Origin: Defluviicoccus sp.
GTDB taxonomy: Bacteria > Pseudomonadota > Alphaproteobacteria > MPNO01
Reading direction: 5' to 3'
NCBI GenBank assembly: GCA_022823775.1
Contig: JAJEHI010000140.1
Location: 1 to 64,000, forward strand
DNA: 64,000 bases
This document shows positions 5,656 through 51,005 of this stretch, piece by piece; the first letter of the stretch is position 1; each line of letters begins with the position of its first letter. A model generated the notes under the pieces. The model saw only the letters and a list, made by a program, of their open reading frames with translations, did no database searches and was not told where the DNA came from. The translations under genes and the position numbers were made by a program.

Positions 5656-6147
5656 ATGGCTGACGAATCCGTGGAACCCCGGCAGCAGGAGAACGGCGCC
5701 GCGGCCGCCGACCGGCCGATGCTCGCCATCGGCGCGCAGTACATCAAGGATCTCTCCTTCGAGAACCCGCTCGGACCCGAAGGCCTCGCGAAGCTGACCG
5801 AGAACCCCAAGGTCGAGGTCGAGGTCAACACCAGCGCCCGGCTGCTCGCCGAGAGCGCCTACGAAGTCTCGCTGTTCATCCGCGCCGAGGCGCAGAGCGG
5901 GGACGCGACGGCGTTCATCGTCGAGCTCACCTATGGCGGGATCGTGATCGTCGGCGAGGTGGCGGAGGAGGACATCCAGCCCCTGGTCCTGATCGAGGGG
6001 CCGCGCCATTTGTTCCCGTTCGCCCGCTCGGTCGTCGCCAACGTCACCCGCGACGGCGGCTTCCCGCCGATGATGATCGACCCGATCGACTTCGCCGCGC
6101 TCTACATGGAGAACGACGCCGCGCGCGCGGGCTTCGATATCTCCTGA
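5656..6147 (+). CDS. secB: SecB, protein-export chaperone
   Basis: SecB (163 residues) is the homotetrameric chaperone that keeps preproteins unfolded and passes them to SecA. The conserved QYIKDLSFENP segment (about 31-41), the ELTYGGIVIVGE region and the PPMMIDPIDFAALY motif near the C-terminus are all present. Length is normal. A strong ribosome binding site (GAGGAGAGGC) lies 6-10 bases before the ATG. The gene converges on dnaQ across a palindromic repeat, as secB-dnaQ neighbours do in many alphaproteobacteria. Confidence 0.96.
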   Translation: MADESVEPRQQENGAAAADRPMLAIGAQYIKDLSFENPLGPEGLAKLTENPKVEVEVNTSARLLAESAYEVSLFIRAEAQSGDATAFIVELTYGGIVIVGEVAEEDIQPLVLIEGPRHLFPFARSVVANVTRDGGFPPMMIDPIDFAALYMENDAARAGFDIS

Positions 6148-9048: not shown

Positions 9049-9897
9049 TCAGCAGCCGAACGCCGCGCCGCCGCTGGGCACCCGTTCCTCCATCCGGTTG
9101 CGGTAGAGCTGGTAGATCGCGGTCGCGGTTTCCTCGATCGACCGCCGCGTTACGTCGATGGCGGGCCAGCCTTGCTCGGCGAACAGGCGCCGCGCGGCGG
9201 TAATCTCGTCCTTCACCGCTTCGATATCGGCGTAGTCGCCGAGCGAATCCTGACGCAACATCAGCAGCCGGTTGCGGCGCACCTGAACGAGCCGCTCCGA
9301 AGCGGCCGTCAGGCCGACGCAGAACGGGCGTTTGAGACGGAACAGCTCGTCCGGCAGGTCGATCCCGGGCACAACCGGCACGTTCGCGGCCTTTATGCCC
9401 CAGTGGTTGGCGAGATAGATCGATGTCGGCGTCTTCGAGGTCCGCGATACGCCGATCAGCACGATATCGGCTTCCTCAAGGCTCCAGGCGTTCTGGCCGT
9501 CGTCGTGGGAGAGCACGAAATTCATCGCCTCGATCCGATCGAAATACTCCGCGTTGAGGAGATGCTGACCCCCCGGGCGGCCGCTCTGCTTGCGGTGGAA
9601 GAAGCGCGCCATCGCCTCGATCACCGGATCGATCACCGAGACGCAGGGCAGGTTGAGATTGCGGCATTCCTCCTGAAGGGCGGACCGGGTGACGTCGTTG
9701 ACCAGGGTGAAGATCACCACGCCCGGCTGCTCGCGAATGCCGGCGAGCACGCTTTCGAGCGCCTCGCCGGTCCGCACCATCGGCCAGAGATGCTGCTCGA
9801 CATCGACGCCCTCGAACTGTGCCATGCAGGCCCGGACCACGCCTTGCGTCGTCTCCCCCGTCGAGTCGGAGACCAGATGCAGATTGTACTCCGCCAT
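9049..9897 (-). CDS. ppsR: PpsR-type pyruvate, water dikinase regulatory protein (DUF299)
   Basis: A bifunctional kinase/pyrophosphorylase of the DUF299 family (282 residues) that regulates PEP synthetase or pyruvate phosphate dikinase by ADP-dependent phosphorylation. The N-terminus is LHLVSDSTGETTQ; the phosphate-binding loop GVSRTSKTPTSIYLAN is near residue 150. Family knowledge gives the role; the target enzyme is not in this window. The ATG at 9897 has a good ribosome binding site (AAAGGAAA), and the open frame upstream of it lies in the AT-rich gap and is not conserved. This gene corresponds to RP001 of the Rickettsia/Caulobacter origin cluster. Confidence 0.93.
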   Translation of the reverse strand: MAEYNLHLVSDSTGETTQGVVRACMAQFEGVDVEQHLWPMVRTGEALESVLAGIREQPGVVIFTLVNDVTRSALQEECRNLNLPCVSVIDPVIEAMARFFHRKQSGRPGGQHLLNAEYFDRIEAMNFVLSHDDGQNAWSLEEADIVLIGVSRTSKTPTSIYLANHWGIKAANVPVVPGIDLPDELFRLKRPFCVGLTAASERLVQVRRNRLLMLRQDSLGDYADIEAVKDEITAARRLFAEQGWPAIDVTRRSIEETATAIYQLYRNRMEERVPSGGAAFGC

Positions 9898-10297
9898 GAT
9901 TTCCTTTCGCTTCCGGTTCGCTGTGGTGTTTGCGCGAATTGCCGGGATAAATCCAGCGAATGCGGCAACCGCCGGGATTCCTTCCCCGGCTTCTTCCTTC
10001 CATCCGGCCTCTTGCGAACCGGTCAGGAAAATATCCCGGGGTGCCCGGCTCTTGGCGACAATCCCATGGCATCCACAAGCTTTCGGCAATTTAATCCAAA
10101 GCTCGAATAATCTCAATAGGTTGATATTAAACGATAAAATCCGATCATTCTTGTTTTCAGGATCCGACTGGACAACCCATCCGCCGTGGACGCTTCCCTG
10201 TGGACAACGGGCATTGAAACGGATAATCCCCGCGATTGAGGCGTCTAACAAACGCTACAACCGAATTTCTTTTCTTTTAGAGGTAGAGTAAGCGCAA
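9898..10297. other. oriC: Candidate chromosomal replication origin (oriC)
   Basis: This 400-bp gap has no convincing gene and separates minus-strand ppsR from plus-strand hemE. Positions 10081-10140 are only 28% GC (17 of 60) in a chromosome near 70%, which suits a DNA-unwinding element. DnaA-box-like sites include 10199-10207 (TTGTCCACA on the minus strand, 8/9 to TTATCCACA) and 10069-10077 (GCATCCACA, 7/9), with weaker ones at 10167-10175 and 10219-10225. The origin of Caulobacter lies in this same place, within the RP001-hemE-hemH cluster. Promoters for both flanking genes must also lie here. Confidence 0.7.
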
Positions 10298-11362
10298 ATG
10301 CGTTCCAGCCAGTCCCAACCGTCGTCGATGCCATCCGTCAAAACCCTGCTCGCCGTTCTCTCCGGTATCCCGGCGACCGTGCCGCCGGTCTGGCTGATGC
10401 GCCAGGCCGGCCGCTATCTGCCGGAATATCGGGCGCTCCGGAAGCGGGCGGACTCGTTCCTCGATTTCTGCTACACGCCCGAGCTCGCCGTCGAGGCCAC
10501 CCTGCAGCCGATACGCCGCTTCCACCTCGACGCGGCGATCGTCTTTTCCGACATCCTCGTGATACCGGACGCTCTGGGCCAGCGGGTCCGGTTCGAGGAC
10601 GGGGTGGGGCCCAGGCTCGATCCGATATCCACGATGGAAGAGGTCGCGCGGCTCCGGGAGACCGGCGTCGCCGAGCGCCTGGAGCCGGTCTACGACACCG
10701 TGTCCGGGGCGCGCGAAGGCCTTCCGGACGGGGTCGCCCTGATCGGTTTCGCCGGAGCGCCGTGGACGATCGCCACCTACATGGTCGAGGGCGGAACCAG
10801 CCGCGGCCACGAACGGATCCGCAAGCTCGCCTACGACGCGCCCGATATGATGGAGAAGCTGATCGGCATTCTGACGAGGGCGGTCGCCGATCACCTGATC
10901 GCCCAGGTTCGGGCCGGCGCGGAGGCGGTGCAGATTTTCGACAGCTGGGCGGGGGCGTTGCCCGCGACGCTGCGCGGGCACTACTCGCTGCGGCCGATTA
11001 CGGAGATCGCGTCGCGCGTCCGCGCCGCCTGCCCGGACGTACCGACGATCGCCTTTCCCCGCGGGGTCGGGACCGGCTATGCCGACTATGCCGCGGTGCC
11101 GACGATAAGCGGGGTTTCCATCGACCAGGGTGTGGATGCGAGCTGGGCCGCTACGGCGCTGCAGGGGTCGGCCGCGGTCCAGGGCAATCTCGATCCTCTG
11201 GTTCTCGCCGCGGGGGGCCGGGCGATGGAGGACAGCATCGACGGCATCCTGTCGGCGCTCGGGGGCGGGCCGTTCGTCTTCAACCTCGGGCACGGAATCG
11301 TGCCGGAGACCCCACCGGAGCACGTCGCCGCCTTGATCGCCCGCGTCAAGGGGACGGGGTAG
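10298..11362 (+). CDS. hemE: HemE, uroporphyrinogen decarboxylase
   Basis: Uroporphyrinogen III decarboxylase (354 residues) turns uroporphyrinogen III into coproporphyrinogen III in heme synthesis. The N-terminal signature PVWLMRQAGRYLPEYR (near 30-45) holds the substrate-binding Arg residues, AAIVFSDILVIPDALG follows, and the second signature is GFAGAPWTIATYMVEGG (near 150). It is the first gene right of the candidate origin, and its last base is shared with the hemH start (TAGTG). The ATG at 10298 follows GAGGTAGAG by about 11 bases; a start at codon 11 is also possible. Confidence 0.96.
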   Translation: MRSSQSQPSSMPSVKTLLAVLSGIPATVPPVWLMRQAGRYLPEYRALRKRADSFLDFCYTPELAVEATLQPIRRFHLDAAIVFSDILVIPDALGQRVRFEDGVGPRLDPISTMEEVARLRETGVAERLEPVYDTVSGAREGLPDGVALIGFAGAPWTIATYMVEGGTSRGHERIRKLAYDAPDMMEKLIGILTRAVADHLIAQVRAGAEAVQIFDSWAGALPATLRGHYSLRPITEIASRVRAACPDVPTIAFPRGVGTGYADYAAVPTISGVSIDQGVDASWAATALQGSAAVQGNLDPLVLAAGGRAMEDSIDGILSALGGGPFVFNLGHGIVPETPPEHVAALIARVKGTG

Positions 11363-12399
11363 TGACGGACCGGACGGCGGTCGTCCTGTTCAATCTCGGA
11401 GGCCCGGACCGTCCGGAATCGATAAGGCCGTTCCTGTTCAATCTCTTCAACGACCCGGCGATTATCCGTCGGCCCTGGCCGGCGCGGTGGGCGCTCGCCC
11501 GCTTGATCTCGTGGCGGCGCGCAGCGGAAGCGGGTCGCATCTACGAGCGCCTCGGCGGCCGTTCGCCCCTGCTCGAGCAGACCGAGGCGCAGGCCCGGGC
11601 GCTAGAGCGCGAGCTCGCGGATCCCGGGACGAGGGTGTTCGTCAGCATGCGGTACTGGCACCCGATGGCGGACGAGGTCGTATCGGAGGTCGCGCGGTTC
11701 GACCCCGCCAGGGTCGTGCTGCTGCCCCTTTACCCGCAGTTTTCGTCGTCCACCACCGCTTCGTCGTTCCGCGACTGGGATCGCGCGGCACGGGGGGCTA
11801 TCGAGGCGTCTACCGCGCGGGTCTGCTGTTATCCGGAGGCGCCCGGCTTCGTCGAGGCGGCGGCCCGGCGGATTTCGGACATTCTCCGGGACTGGGAAGG
11901 GCCCGGACCGCGAATCCTCTATTCGGCGCACGGCGTGCCCAAGGCCTTCGTCGAAGCGGGGGATCCGTACGAGGAACAGGTCGAGCGCAGCGCCGCCGCC
12001 ATTCGCCGGGCGCTTCGCCGGGACGATCTCGAACATGTCGTCTGCTATCAGAGCCGGGTTGGGCCGCTCGAATGGATCGGGCCCTATACCGACCGGGAGA
12101 TCGAGCGGGCCGGCTCCGAGGGGAAGCCGCTGATCGTGGCGCCGATCGCTTTCGTCTCCGAGCATTCCGAGACGCTGGTGGAGCTCGACGAGGACTATCG
12201 GGAACTCGCGCGGGAGAGCGGCGTTCCGGTCTACAAGCGCGCGGCGACCGTCGGCACAGACGCCGCTTTTATCGGCGCGCTCGCCGGCCTCGTCGGGCGG
12301 GCGCTCGGGTCTTCCGAAGCCGTCCTCGGCGGATCGGACGGCCGGATATGCGGAACGGGCGCCGGCGATTGCCCGCTCGCCGCGGGATACGCTGCGTGA
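11362..12399 (+). CDS. hemH: HemH, ferrochelatase
   Basis: Ferrochelatase (345 residues) inserts Fe2+ into protoporphyrin IX. It opens with AVVLFNLGGPDRPESIRPFL; the catalytic His is in LYSAHGVPKAFVE (near 195), and the YQSRVGPLEWIGPYT and FVSEHSETLVELD segments are family hallmarks. The start is GTG at 11362, overlapping the hemE stop by one base. Its own TGA overlaps the hemJ GTG by four bases, so hemE-hemH-hemJ is a coupled heme operon. Confidence 0.95.
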   Translation: MTDRTAVVLFNLGGPDRPESIRPFLFNLFNDPAIIRRPWPARWALARLISWRRAAEAGRIYERLGGRSPLLEQTEAQARALERELADPGTRVFVSMRYWHPMADEVVSEVARFDPARVVLLPLYPQFSSSTTASSFRDWDRAARGAIEASTARVCCYPEAPGFVEAAARRISDILRDWEGPGPRILYSAHGVPKAFVEAGDPYEEQVERSAAAIRRALRRDDLEHVVCYQSRVGPLEWIGPYTDREIERAGSEGKPLIVAPIAFVSEHSETLVELDEDYRELARESGVPVYKRAATVGTDAAFIGALAGLVGRALGSSEAVLGGSDGRICGTGAGDCPLAAGYAA

Positions 12400-12842
12400 T
12401 CTGGCTGGCCGATGTCTATCCGTGGGTTCGCGCGCTTCACATCGTGAGCGTGATCGCATGGATGGCCGGGATGCTCTATCTGCCGAGGCTCTACGTCTAT
12501 CACTGCGACCGGGAGCCGGGCTCGGAAGCCGACGAGATGCTCAAGACCATGGAGCGCCGGCTGCTGCGGGCGATCGTCAACCCGGCGATGATCGCCGTGT
12601 TCCTCACCGGCGGCCTGCTCCTGCTCACCCCCGGGGCCGTCGATTGGGCGTCGGGCTGGATTTACGCCAAGCTCGTGCTCGTGTTGGCGTTAAGCGCCGT
12701 CCACGGAGCGTTCGCGGCATGGCGGCGCGCCTTCGAGGAAGGCCGCAACCGGCGTTCGCCGCGGTTTTACCGCTTCGCCAACGAAGTTCCGACCGTGCTG
12801 ATGGTCGGGATCGTCGTATTCGTCGTCGTGAGACCTTTCTGA
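12396..12842 (+). CDS. hemJ: HemJ, protoporphyrinogen IX oxidase
   Basis: This 148-residue membrane protein is the HemJ (formerly UPF0093) type protoporphyrinogen oxidase. It has four hydrophobic segments, at about 10-28, 60-78, 85-105 and 130-148. The conserved His lies in [20 protein letters not shown], with LPRLYVYH following, and the Lys sits in [10 protein letters not shown]; these residues bind heme in characterised HemJ. Start is GTG at 12396 in a GTGA overlap with hemH. HemJ fits an aerobic alphaproteobacterium without hemG or hemY and corresponds to RP883 in the conserved origin cluster. Confidence 0.93.
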
Positions 12843-13050
12843 TCCGGCCGGGCGGTCTTGCAATCGGCGTTTGACTCCGCGCCCGCCATTCGTTAAGTGG
12901 TTGCGACACGGTTCGTTCCGAAGCGCACGCCGCCCCAAGACAAATCGACAAAAAACGGCTCCCGAGGGCGGTGGGGCTTCCCCGTTATGCGTCCTTTCCA
13001 GAAACATTTGCGGGCGCTTACCGCAGAGCAAACAAACACCCGGTACTCGA
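12843..13050 (+). other. Leader region of rho
   Basis: This 208-bp stretch between hemJ and rho has no gene that looks real; a frame open in phase with rho from 12871 encodes low-complexity, non-conserved sequence before the true rho start. It contains an A-rich segment (12940-12960) and would form the untranslated leader of rho. Rho is autoregulated in several bacteria, but no specific site was resolved here. Confidence 0.5.
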
Positions 13051-14307
13051 ATGAATCTGCAAGAACTCAAGCAGAAATCGCCCGCCGATCTTCTGACCTA
13101 CGCGGAAGAGCTGCAAATCGAGAACGCATCGACCCTGCGCAAGCAGGACATGATGTTCGCGATCCTGAAGCAGCTCGCGGAAAACGATGTCGTCATTTCC
13201 GGCAACGGCGTGCTGGAAGTCCTCCAGGACGGTTTCGGCTTCCTGCGGTCGCCCGAGGCGAACTATCTGCCGGGTCCCGACGACATCTATGTCTCGCCGA
13301 GCCAGATCCGCCGTTTCGGTCTCAGGACCGGCGATACCGTCGAGGGTCAGATCCGCTCGCCCAAGGACGGGGAGCGCTATTTCGCCCTGCTCAAGGTCAA
13401 CCTGATCAATTTCGAGGACCCGGAGCGCATCCGCCACCGGATCAATTTCGACAATCTCACCCCGCTCTACCCGGAAGAGAAGATCGCGCTCGAGGTCGAC
13501 GATCCCACCCGGAAGGATTTGACCACCCGTATCATCGATTTGATCACCCCGCTCGGCAAGGGCCAGCGCGCGCTGATCGTCGCGCCACCCAGGACCGGCA
13601 AGACGATGATGCTCCAGGGGATCGCGCATTCGATCAGCGCGAACCATCCGGATGCCTACCTGATCGTGCTCCTGATCGACGAGCGGCCCGAGGAAGTGAC
13701 CGACATGCAGCGCTCGGTGAAGGGCGAGGTCATCAGCTCGACCTTCGACGAGCCGGCGTCGCGCCACGTCCAGGTCGCCGAGATGGTGATCGAAAAGGCG
13801 AAGCGCCTGGTGGAGCACAAGCGCGACGTGGTGATCCTGCTGGATTCGATCACGCGCCTCGCGCGCGCCTACAACACCGTCGTGCCGAGCTCGGGCAAGG
13901 TGCTGACCGGCGGCGTGGACGCCAACGCGCTGCAGCGGCCGAAACGGTTCTTCGGCGCCGCGCGCAATATCGAGGAGGGCGGATCGCTCACCATCATCTC
14001 GTCCGCGCTGATCGATACCGGCTCGCGCATGGACGAGGTGATTTTCGAGGAGTTCAAGGGCACCGGCAATTCCGAGATCATCCTCGACCGCAAGCTCGCC
14101 GACAAGCGCACCTTCCCGGCGATGGACATCACCAAGTCGGGCACCCGCAAGGAAGAGCTGCTGGTCGACCGCGGCACGCTCTCGAAGATGTGGGTGCTCA
14201 GGCGCATCCTCACGCCGATGGGCGTCACGGATTCGATGGAGTTCCTGATCGACAAGATCAAGGACACCAAGAACAACCCCGACTTCTTCGAGTCGATGAA
14301 CCAGTAG
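13051..14307 (+). CDS. rho: Rho, transcription termination factor
   Basis: The 418-residue hexameric RNA helicase that terminates transcription. It has the N-terminal Rho domain ([20 protein letters not shown]), the RNA-binding cold-shock fold ([20 protein letters not shown], about 65-85), Walker [10 protein letters not shown] near 180, Walker [17 protein letters not shown], and the Q/R-loop region with [20 protein letters not shown]. The start is set by homology; 180 bp of open frame upstream is not conserved. Rho follows the hem genes near the origin in many alphaproteobacteria, but mnmE-mnmG-rsmG-parAB, which often come next, are absent here. Confidence 0.97.
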
Positions 14308-50830: not shown

Positions 50831-50849
50831 ATTTCGCGAGGGCGGCGCT

Positions 50850-51005
50850 GCGCGGTGCGCGAAGCCATCTATCCCCGGGGCCAATACAGTCCTCTTGGGA
50901 GCTGTCCCTGCCGCGGCCGTGGCCGCGGGACACGGCGCCCACCTGCATGTTGCAGGCCGCGGAGGATACACATGGCGGGACGGCCGGCGCGGCGCCGTCC
51001 GGTAG
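50850..51005 (+). ncRNA. ssrS: 6S RNA
   Basis: Located between zapA and fau, the canonical place. The terminal stem pairs 50865-50874 (CCATCTATCC) with 50964-50975 (GGATACACATGG). A central open region follows, an apical hairpin uses CCGCGGCC/GGCCGCGG (about 50911-50930), and the 3' side of the bubble has a small hairpin CTGCATGTTGCAG (50943-50955). This is the rod with a large bubble typical of 6S RNA, which mimics an open promoter and sequesters RNA polymerase. Ends are estimates. A terminator follows. Confidence 0.72.

Follow-up and report, generated by a model that had tools for sequence, protein, structure and literature searches.

Gene Order and Base Composition around the ppsR–hemE Gap

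The window, by which we mean the whole 64-kb stretch of DNA that was analyzed, contains a gene-free gap of 400 bp (9898..10297) flanked by the divergent genes ppsR and hemE, as described in the first-pass annotation, which had proposed this gap as a candidate chromosomal replication origin (oriC). The left boundary is formed by ppsR, the ortholog of COG1806/RP001 (9049..9897, − strand; NF003742, E 3e-99, 331.8 bits against a cut-off of 225), and the right boundary by hemE (10298..11362, + strand; TIGR01464, E 2.5e-116, 388 bits), the true start of which may instead be 10328, given that the alignments of most homologs begin only at residue ~10–16. The conserved origin-side cluster continues with hemH (11359..12399, +; TIGR00109), hemJ, the RP883 ortholog (12399..12842, +; PF03653), and rho (12871..14307, +), downstream of which the genes are unrelated. 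The neighborhood thus reads mltA, a Tim44-domain protein, secB, dnaQ, coaE (assigned by reading), aroE, maf and ppsR on one side of the gap, and hemE, hemH, hemJ and rho on the other. The earlier statement that the flanking genes point away from the gap is accurate for a few kb, with dnaQ-coaE-aroE-maf-ppsR on the − strand and hemE-hemH-hemJ-rho on the + strand, but does not extend further out, where secB (5656-6147, +) and the gene block between 14429 and ~29.8 kb (−) run against it. An Rfam scan of the gap gave no match; elsewhere in the window, a 6S RNA is found at 50842-50999 (RF00013, 57 bits).

The gap contains the lowest-GC 400-bp stretch of the window and, with a length of 400 bp and a GC content of 50.8% vs ~70%, is both longer than 300 bp and AT-richer than its genome, the two properties by which the gap of a hemE/ppsR locus is recognized. 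Its AT-rich core (10081..10140) has a GC content of 28.3%, the minimum over all 60-bp stretches in the 64 kb and the value that had been reported for it. A search for IHF sites, which had been suggested as a check, gave a perfect consensus, CAATAGGTTGATA, in the middle of the gap (10114..10126, −), and this is the only perfect one in the 64 kb. Aligned perfect sites are present in two siblings (L005 and L006), where ≤0.04 sites are expected per gap, and in two further members (L007 and L008) the site reads with one mismatch.

DnaA Boxes and the hemE-Side Block

The best DnaA box in the gap, TTGTCCACA (10199..10207, −), has 1 mismatch and lies where the first-pass annotation had placed it, although it is not preserved at that quality in the siblings. 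The sequence scan gave two further, weak DnaA-box-like sites with 2 mismatches each, GCATCCACA (10069..10077, +) and TAATCCAAA (10092..10100, +). The description of the gap as holding several near-consensus boxes was therefore generous, as just one site has ≤1 mismatch (0.07 expected), and the total of three boxes with ≤2 mismatches against 0.92 expected corresponds to p ~0.05 in dinucleotide shuffles. The enrichment over chance is thus marginal in the window gap alone and becomes strong only across the gaps of its relatives, which are considered below. We note that the DnaA score of the gap ranks among the highest 0.5% when 441 kb sampled from its own genome are scored, and that the five genus gaps together hold only 1 box with ≤1 mismatch. 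On the ppsR side, the genus conserves TTATCCCGG (9942..9950, −), which is 3 mismatches away from TTATCCACA and aligns with a TTATCCCCA box near ppsR that the alignment places in many same-order gaps; the motif GGGATAA near ppsR is kept in the genus, in line with this box of the relatives. An altered DnaA specificity was considered and rejected, since DnaA shows no apparent change in its DNA-binding domain.

The hemE side of the gap carries a conserved block (10221..10290, +) composed of TAATCCCC (10224-10231), a trio-like TCTAACAAACGCTACAACC (10244-10262) and an AT tract (10264-10280), all on the + strand, which is the counterpart of a box/DnaA-trio/AT-rich module in the relatives. In the same-order relatives, the equivalent place reads AATCCCC, a TTCCAC-like box, CTACTACTA trios and an AT tract, and the CTA triplets correspond to DnaA-trios on the opposite strand, in runs that exceed those of shuffled sequences in many of these relatives. 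Most of these triplets read CAA or similar in the genus of the window, so that the central base of the trio is largely lost: the trio centers are mostly A on the + strand where the same-order relatives have T. Across five genus members, 53% of the columns of the block are invariant, vs 26% in the remaining gap, a difference that is modest by a circular-shift control, in which 9 of 399 shifts equal or exceed it. Furthermore, the block overlaps the upstream region of hemE, and a promoter role could thus explain its conservation.

The arrangement of the block resembles that of the basal unwinding system (BUS), with which it shares the layout of a box-like sequence, a short spacer, trinucleotide repeats and an AT-rich tract (PMC8287927). 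The published search rule asks for a box with ≤2 mismatches, a spacer of ≤16 bp and ≥3 NAN trios with a central A (PMC8287927), and the gap departs from this rule in that its nearest ≤2-mismatch box ends at 10207 while the trio-like run starts at ~10244. DnaA-trios without the middle adenine have been suspected to exist (PMC8287927), and the trio block of this genus is a natural candidate for such deviant trios.

Outside the gap, exact DnaA boxes are genome-wide no commoner than a reversed control, and the five genus drafts contain no exact-box cluster elsewhere, except for 12-bp-spaced pairs of RepC type. Two other places were considered as chromosomal origins and rejected, namely the neighborhood of dnaA, where the upstream boxes are weak only, and two exact boxes 12 bp apart at C105:67978-67998, which lie inside a plasmid RepC-type gene. 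This gene, at the end of contig C105 of G000 (L122:9143-10170), encodes a RepC-type replication protein with an RP-C domain, and its presence suggests a repABC-like replicon or an integrated copy of one. An exact-box pair with the identical 12-bp spacing is found in G004 (contig C159), where the RepC-type assignment is made by analogy with the G000 pair.

Orthologous Gaps, GC Skew and Assignment of the Probable Origin

We compared 30 hemE loci, including that of the window, and found ppsR divergently upstream of hemE in 29 of them, with gaps that are mostly 390–450 bp in length. Over these 29 gaps, we counted 8 exact DnaA boxes where 0.15 are expected, 70 with ≤1 mismatch (3.6 expected) and 159 with ≤2 mismatches (41.7 expected). 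In the sister genus (G005), the gap is split, with hemE on one contig and ppsR on another, and the ~226 bp of it that are readable hold five 2-mismatch boxes. Among the closest counterparts of the window gap are those of the same order (for example, L022 of G011, L021 of G010 and L026 of G012), which share with it the position, hemE-side AATCCCC and ppsR-side GGGATAA, together with a similar length; these gaps have several ≤1-mismatch boxes and CTA runs, whereas the boxes in this genus are degenerate.

The Caulobacter origin has been mapped experimentally at the hemE/COG1806 (ppsR) locus, and that of Rickettsia was identified by the same flanking genes (PMC1914354). The first-pass annotation had drawn this parallel, and it holds, as the window locus is orthologous and has the same boundary pair. 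Like Cori of Caulobacter crescentus and the ori of Rickettsia prowazekii, it combines these boundary genes with a gap of ~400 bp that is AT-richer than the genome and holds an IHF site and DnaA boxes, the latter only marginally above chance in the window (PMC1914354). It differs from a Caulobacter-type Cori in the CtrA site (TTAA-N7-TTAA), which we looked for in the window gap, as had been suggested, and which is absent there even at 1 mismatch; the gaps of the relatives show no enrichment in such sites either (10 vs 9.3 expected). We therefore do not file the locus as a CtrA-regulated Cori and place it in the hemE/ppsR (COG1806)-locus type only, as it conforms neither to the CtrA-regulated type nor to the BUS rule.

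An additional line of evidence comes from G011, a complete genome of the same order on one contig of 4.15 Mb, in which hemE lies at 2.777 Mb and the GC skew changes sign at this position. Of the 20-kb samples taken from this genome, those between 0.42 and 2.77 Mb have a negative skew, apart from a single one at 2.64 Mb, and those that follow, from 2.78 Mb round to 0.23 Mb, are for the most part positive. Taken together, the orthology of the locus, the box enrichment and this skew switch allow us to conclude with good confidence that the hemE/ppsR gap is the origin locus of the order.

In the genus itself, the skew is flat wherever it was sampled. The own assembly comprises 198 contigs, and the skew, read from sampled stretches, has a mean absolute value of 0.010 over 17 of them. 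Along the three long genus contigs analyzed, neither GC skew nor codon-3 asymmetry switches at hemE, and the long hemE contigs of two siblings are likewise flat in skew. To the right of hemE, codon-3 skew is the same for + and − genes (p 0.75). GC skew and gene-strand bias are practically absent both in the window (1-64000) and in the own contigs that were sampled. As the skew is also weak (0.014) in G054, a complete genome of the same class with 70% GC, the flat skew of the genus neither supports nor refutes an origin at hemE, nor does it argue for relocation.

Taking these observations into account, we consider it highly probable that the gap is the ancestral hemE/ppsR oriC locus of the alphaproteobacteria and that it probably continues to act as the origin, although its DnaA boxes and trios have decayed. 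The proposal of an origin between ppsR and hemE is thus supported, by comparison with relatives rather than by the signals on which it had been based. The strongest signals in the gap itself, namely the IHF site with its conserved position and the conserved hemE-side block, had gone unnoticed in the first-pass annotation. In terms of mechanism, we infer DnaA and IHF binding, a melting point and origin firing in the genus as follows: DnaA would load on the weak boxes within the gap, bending by IHF at 10114-10126 would bring it to TAATCCCC and the trio-like repeats of the hemE-side block (10221-10290), and the AT-rich DNA adjoining this block would melt for helicase loading.

The decay of the DnaA boxes across the genus, the loss of the central trio base, the flat skew and absent gene-strand bias around hemE, and the location of parAB apart from the hemE-rho cluster would also be expected of a relic, that is, of an ancestral origin locus that is conserved as the divergent ppsR/hemE regulatory region while initiation has moved elsewhere in the genus. 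We nevertheless consider such a move unlikely: the five genus drafts offer no other exact-box cluster, plasmid-type RepC pairs excepted, the IHF site and the AT-rich core persist, and the skew, being flat throughout the own sampled genome and weak in G054 too, provides no argument for relocation. Even less probable, in our view, is that the AT-rich core and the conserved blocks are ordinary divergent promoters that serve ppsR and hemE and take part in replication in none of the members. The gap contains three sigma-70-like matches where 0.4 are expected, and the conserved blocks adjoin both genes, in line with promoter function, but this would leave unexplained the DnaA-box enrichment and DnaA-trio runs in the orthologous gaps, the change of skew sign that G011 shows at hemE, and the experimentally mapped origin of Caulobacter (PMC1914354).

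An origin at the ppsR–hemE gap would provide a testable origin coordinate for an uncultured genus, which would be useful for draft ordering and for read-depth estimates of growth rate. In this genus, the flanking genes, the IHF site and the putative unwinding block outlast the DnaA boxes, and we caution that box counts or GC skew alone are risky guides for locating origins in high-GC alphaproteobacteria.

Dispersed parS Sites in the Genus

The genus of the window, of which the named members are “Defluviicoccus sp.” MAGs and which we take to be sponge-associated from isolate names and general knowledge, has 22–52 exact parS sites (TGTTTCACGTGAAACA) per genome, vs 0–9, mostly 1–2, in the 92 others searched. 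Within the own genome, the majority of these sites are part of a dispersed, modular palindromic repeat that is mostly intergenic, often with two sites at a distance of 37 bp flanking AGGTCANCANTGNTGACCT; the central palindrome, used alone as query, retrieved 21 copies, all adjoining parS with ≤1 mismatch. The own-genome loci (L034-L053, L167 and L168) are spread over ~20 contigs, none of which is that of the window (C35), and the parS-bearing contigs add up to ~0.87 Mb from their listed lengths. For comparison, 20–23 parS near the origin are regarded as high counts, and extra sites are tolerated only within ~600 kb (PMC7333895). Many class members have an exact parS within ~4–27 kb of hemE, which favors an origin there; in this genus, parS is of no use as an origin marker, because the sites are dispersed.

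It is conceivable, albeit rather unlikely, that initiation and segregation have both been rewired in this genus, which would then combine a deviant-trio origin in which the central adenine is replaced, almost no consensus boxes, a genome-wide spread of parS on a palindromic repeat and, possibly, a weaker reliance on one DnaA-driven origin. On the 17.7-kb contig that carries parAB (C103), we found no parS within 3 mismatches. The parA and parB genes themselves (L121:15820-17657, on contig C103 of G000) look canonical and lie on another contig than the hemE-rho cluster.
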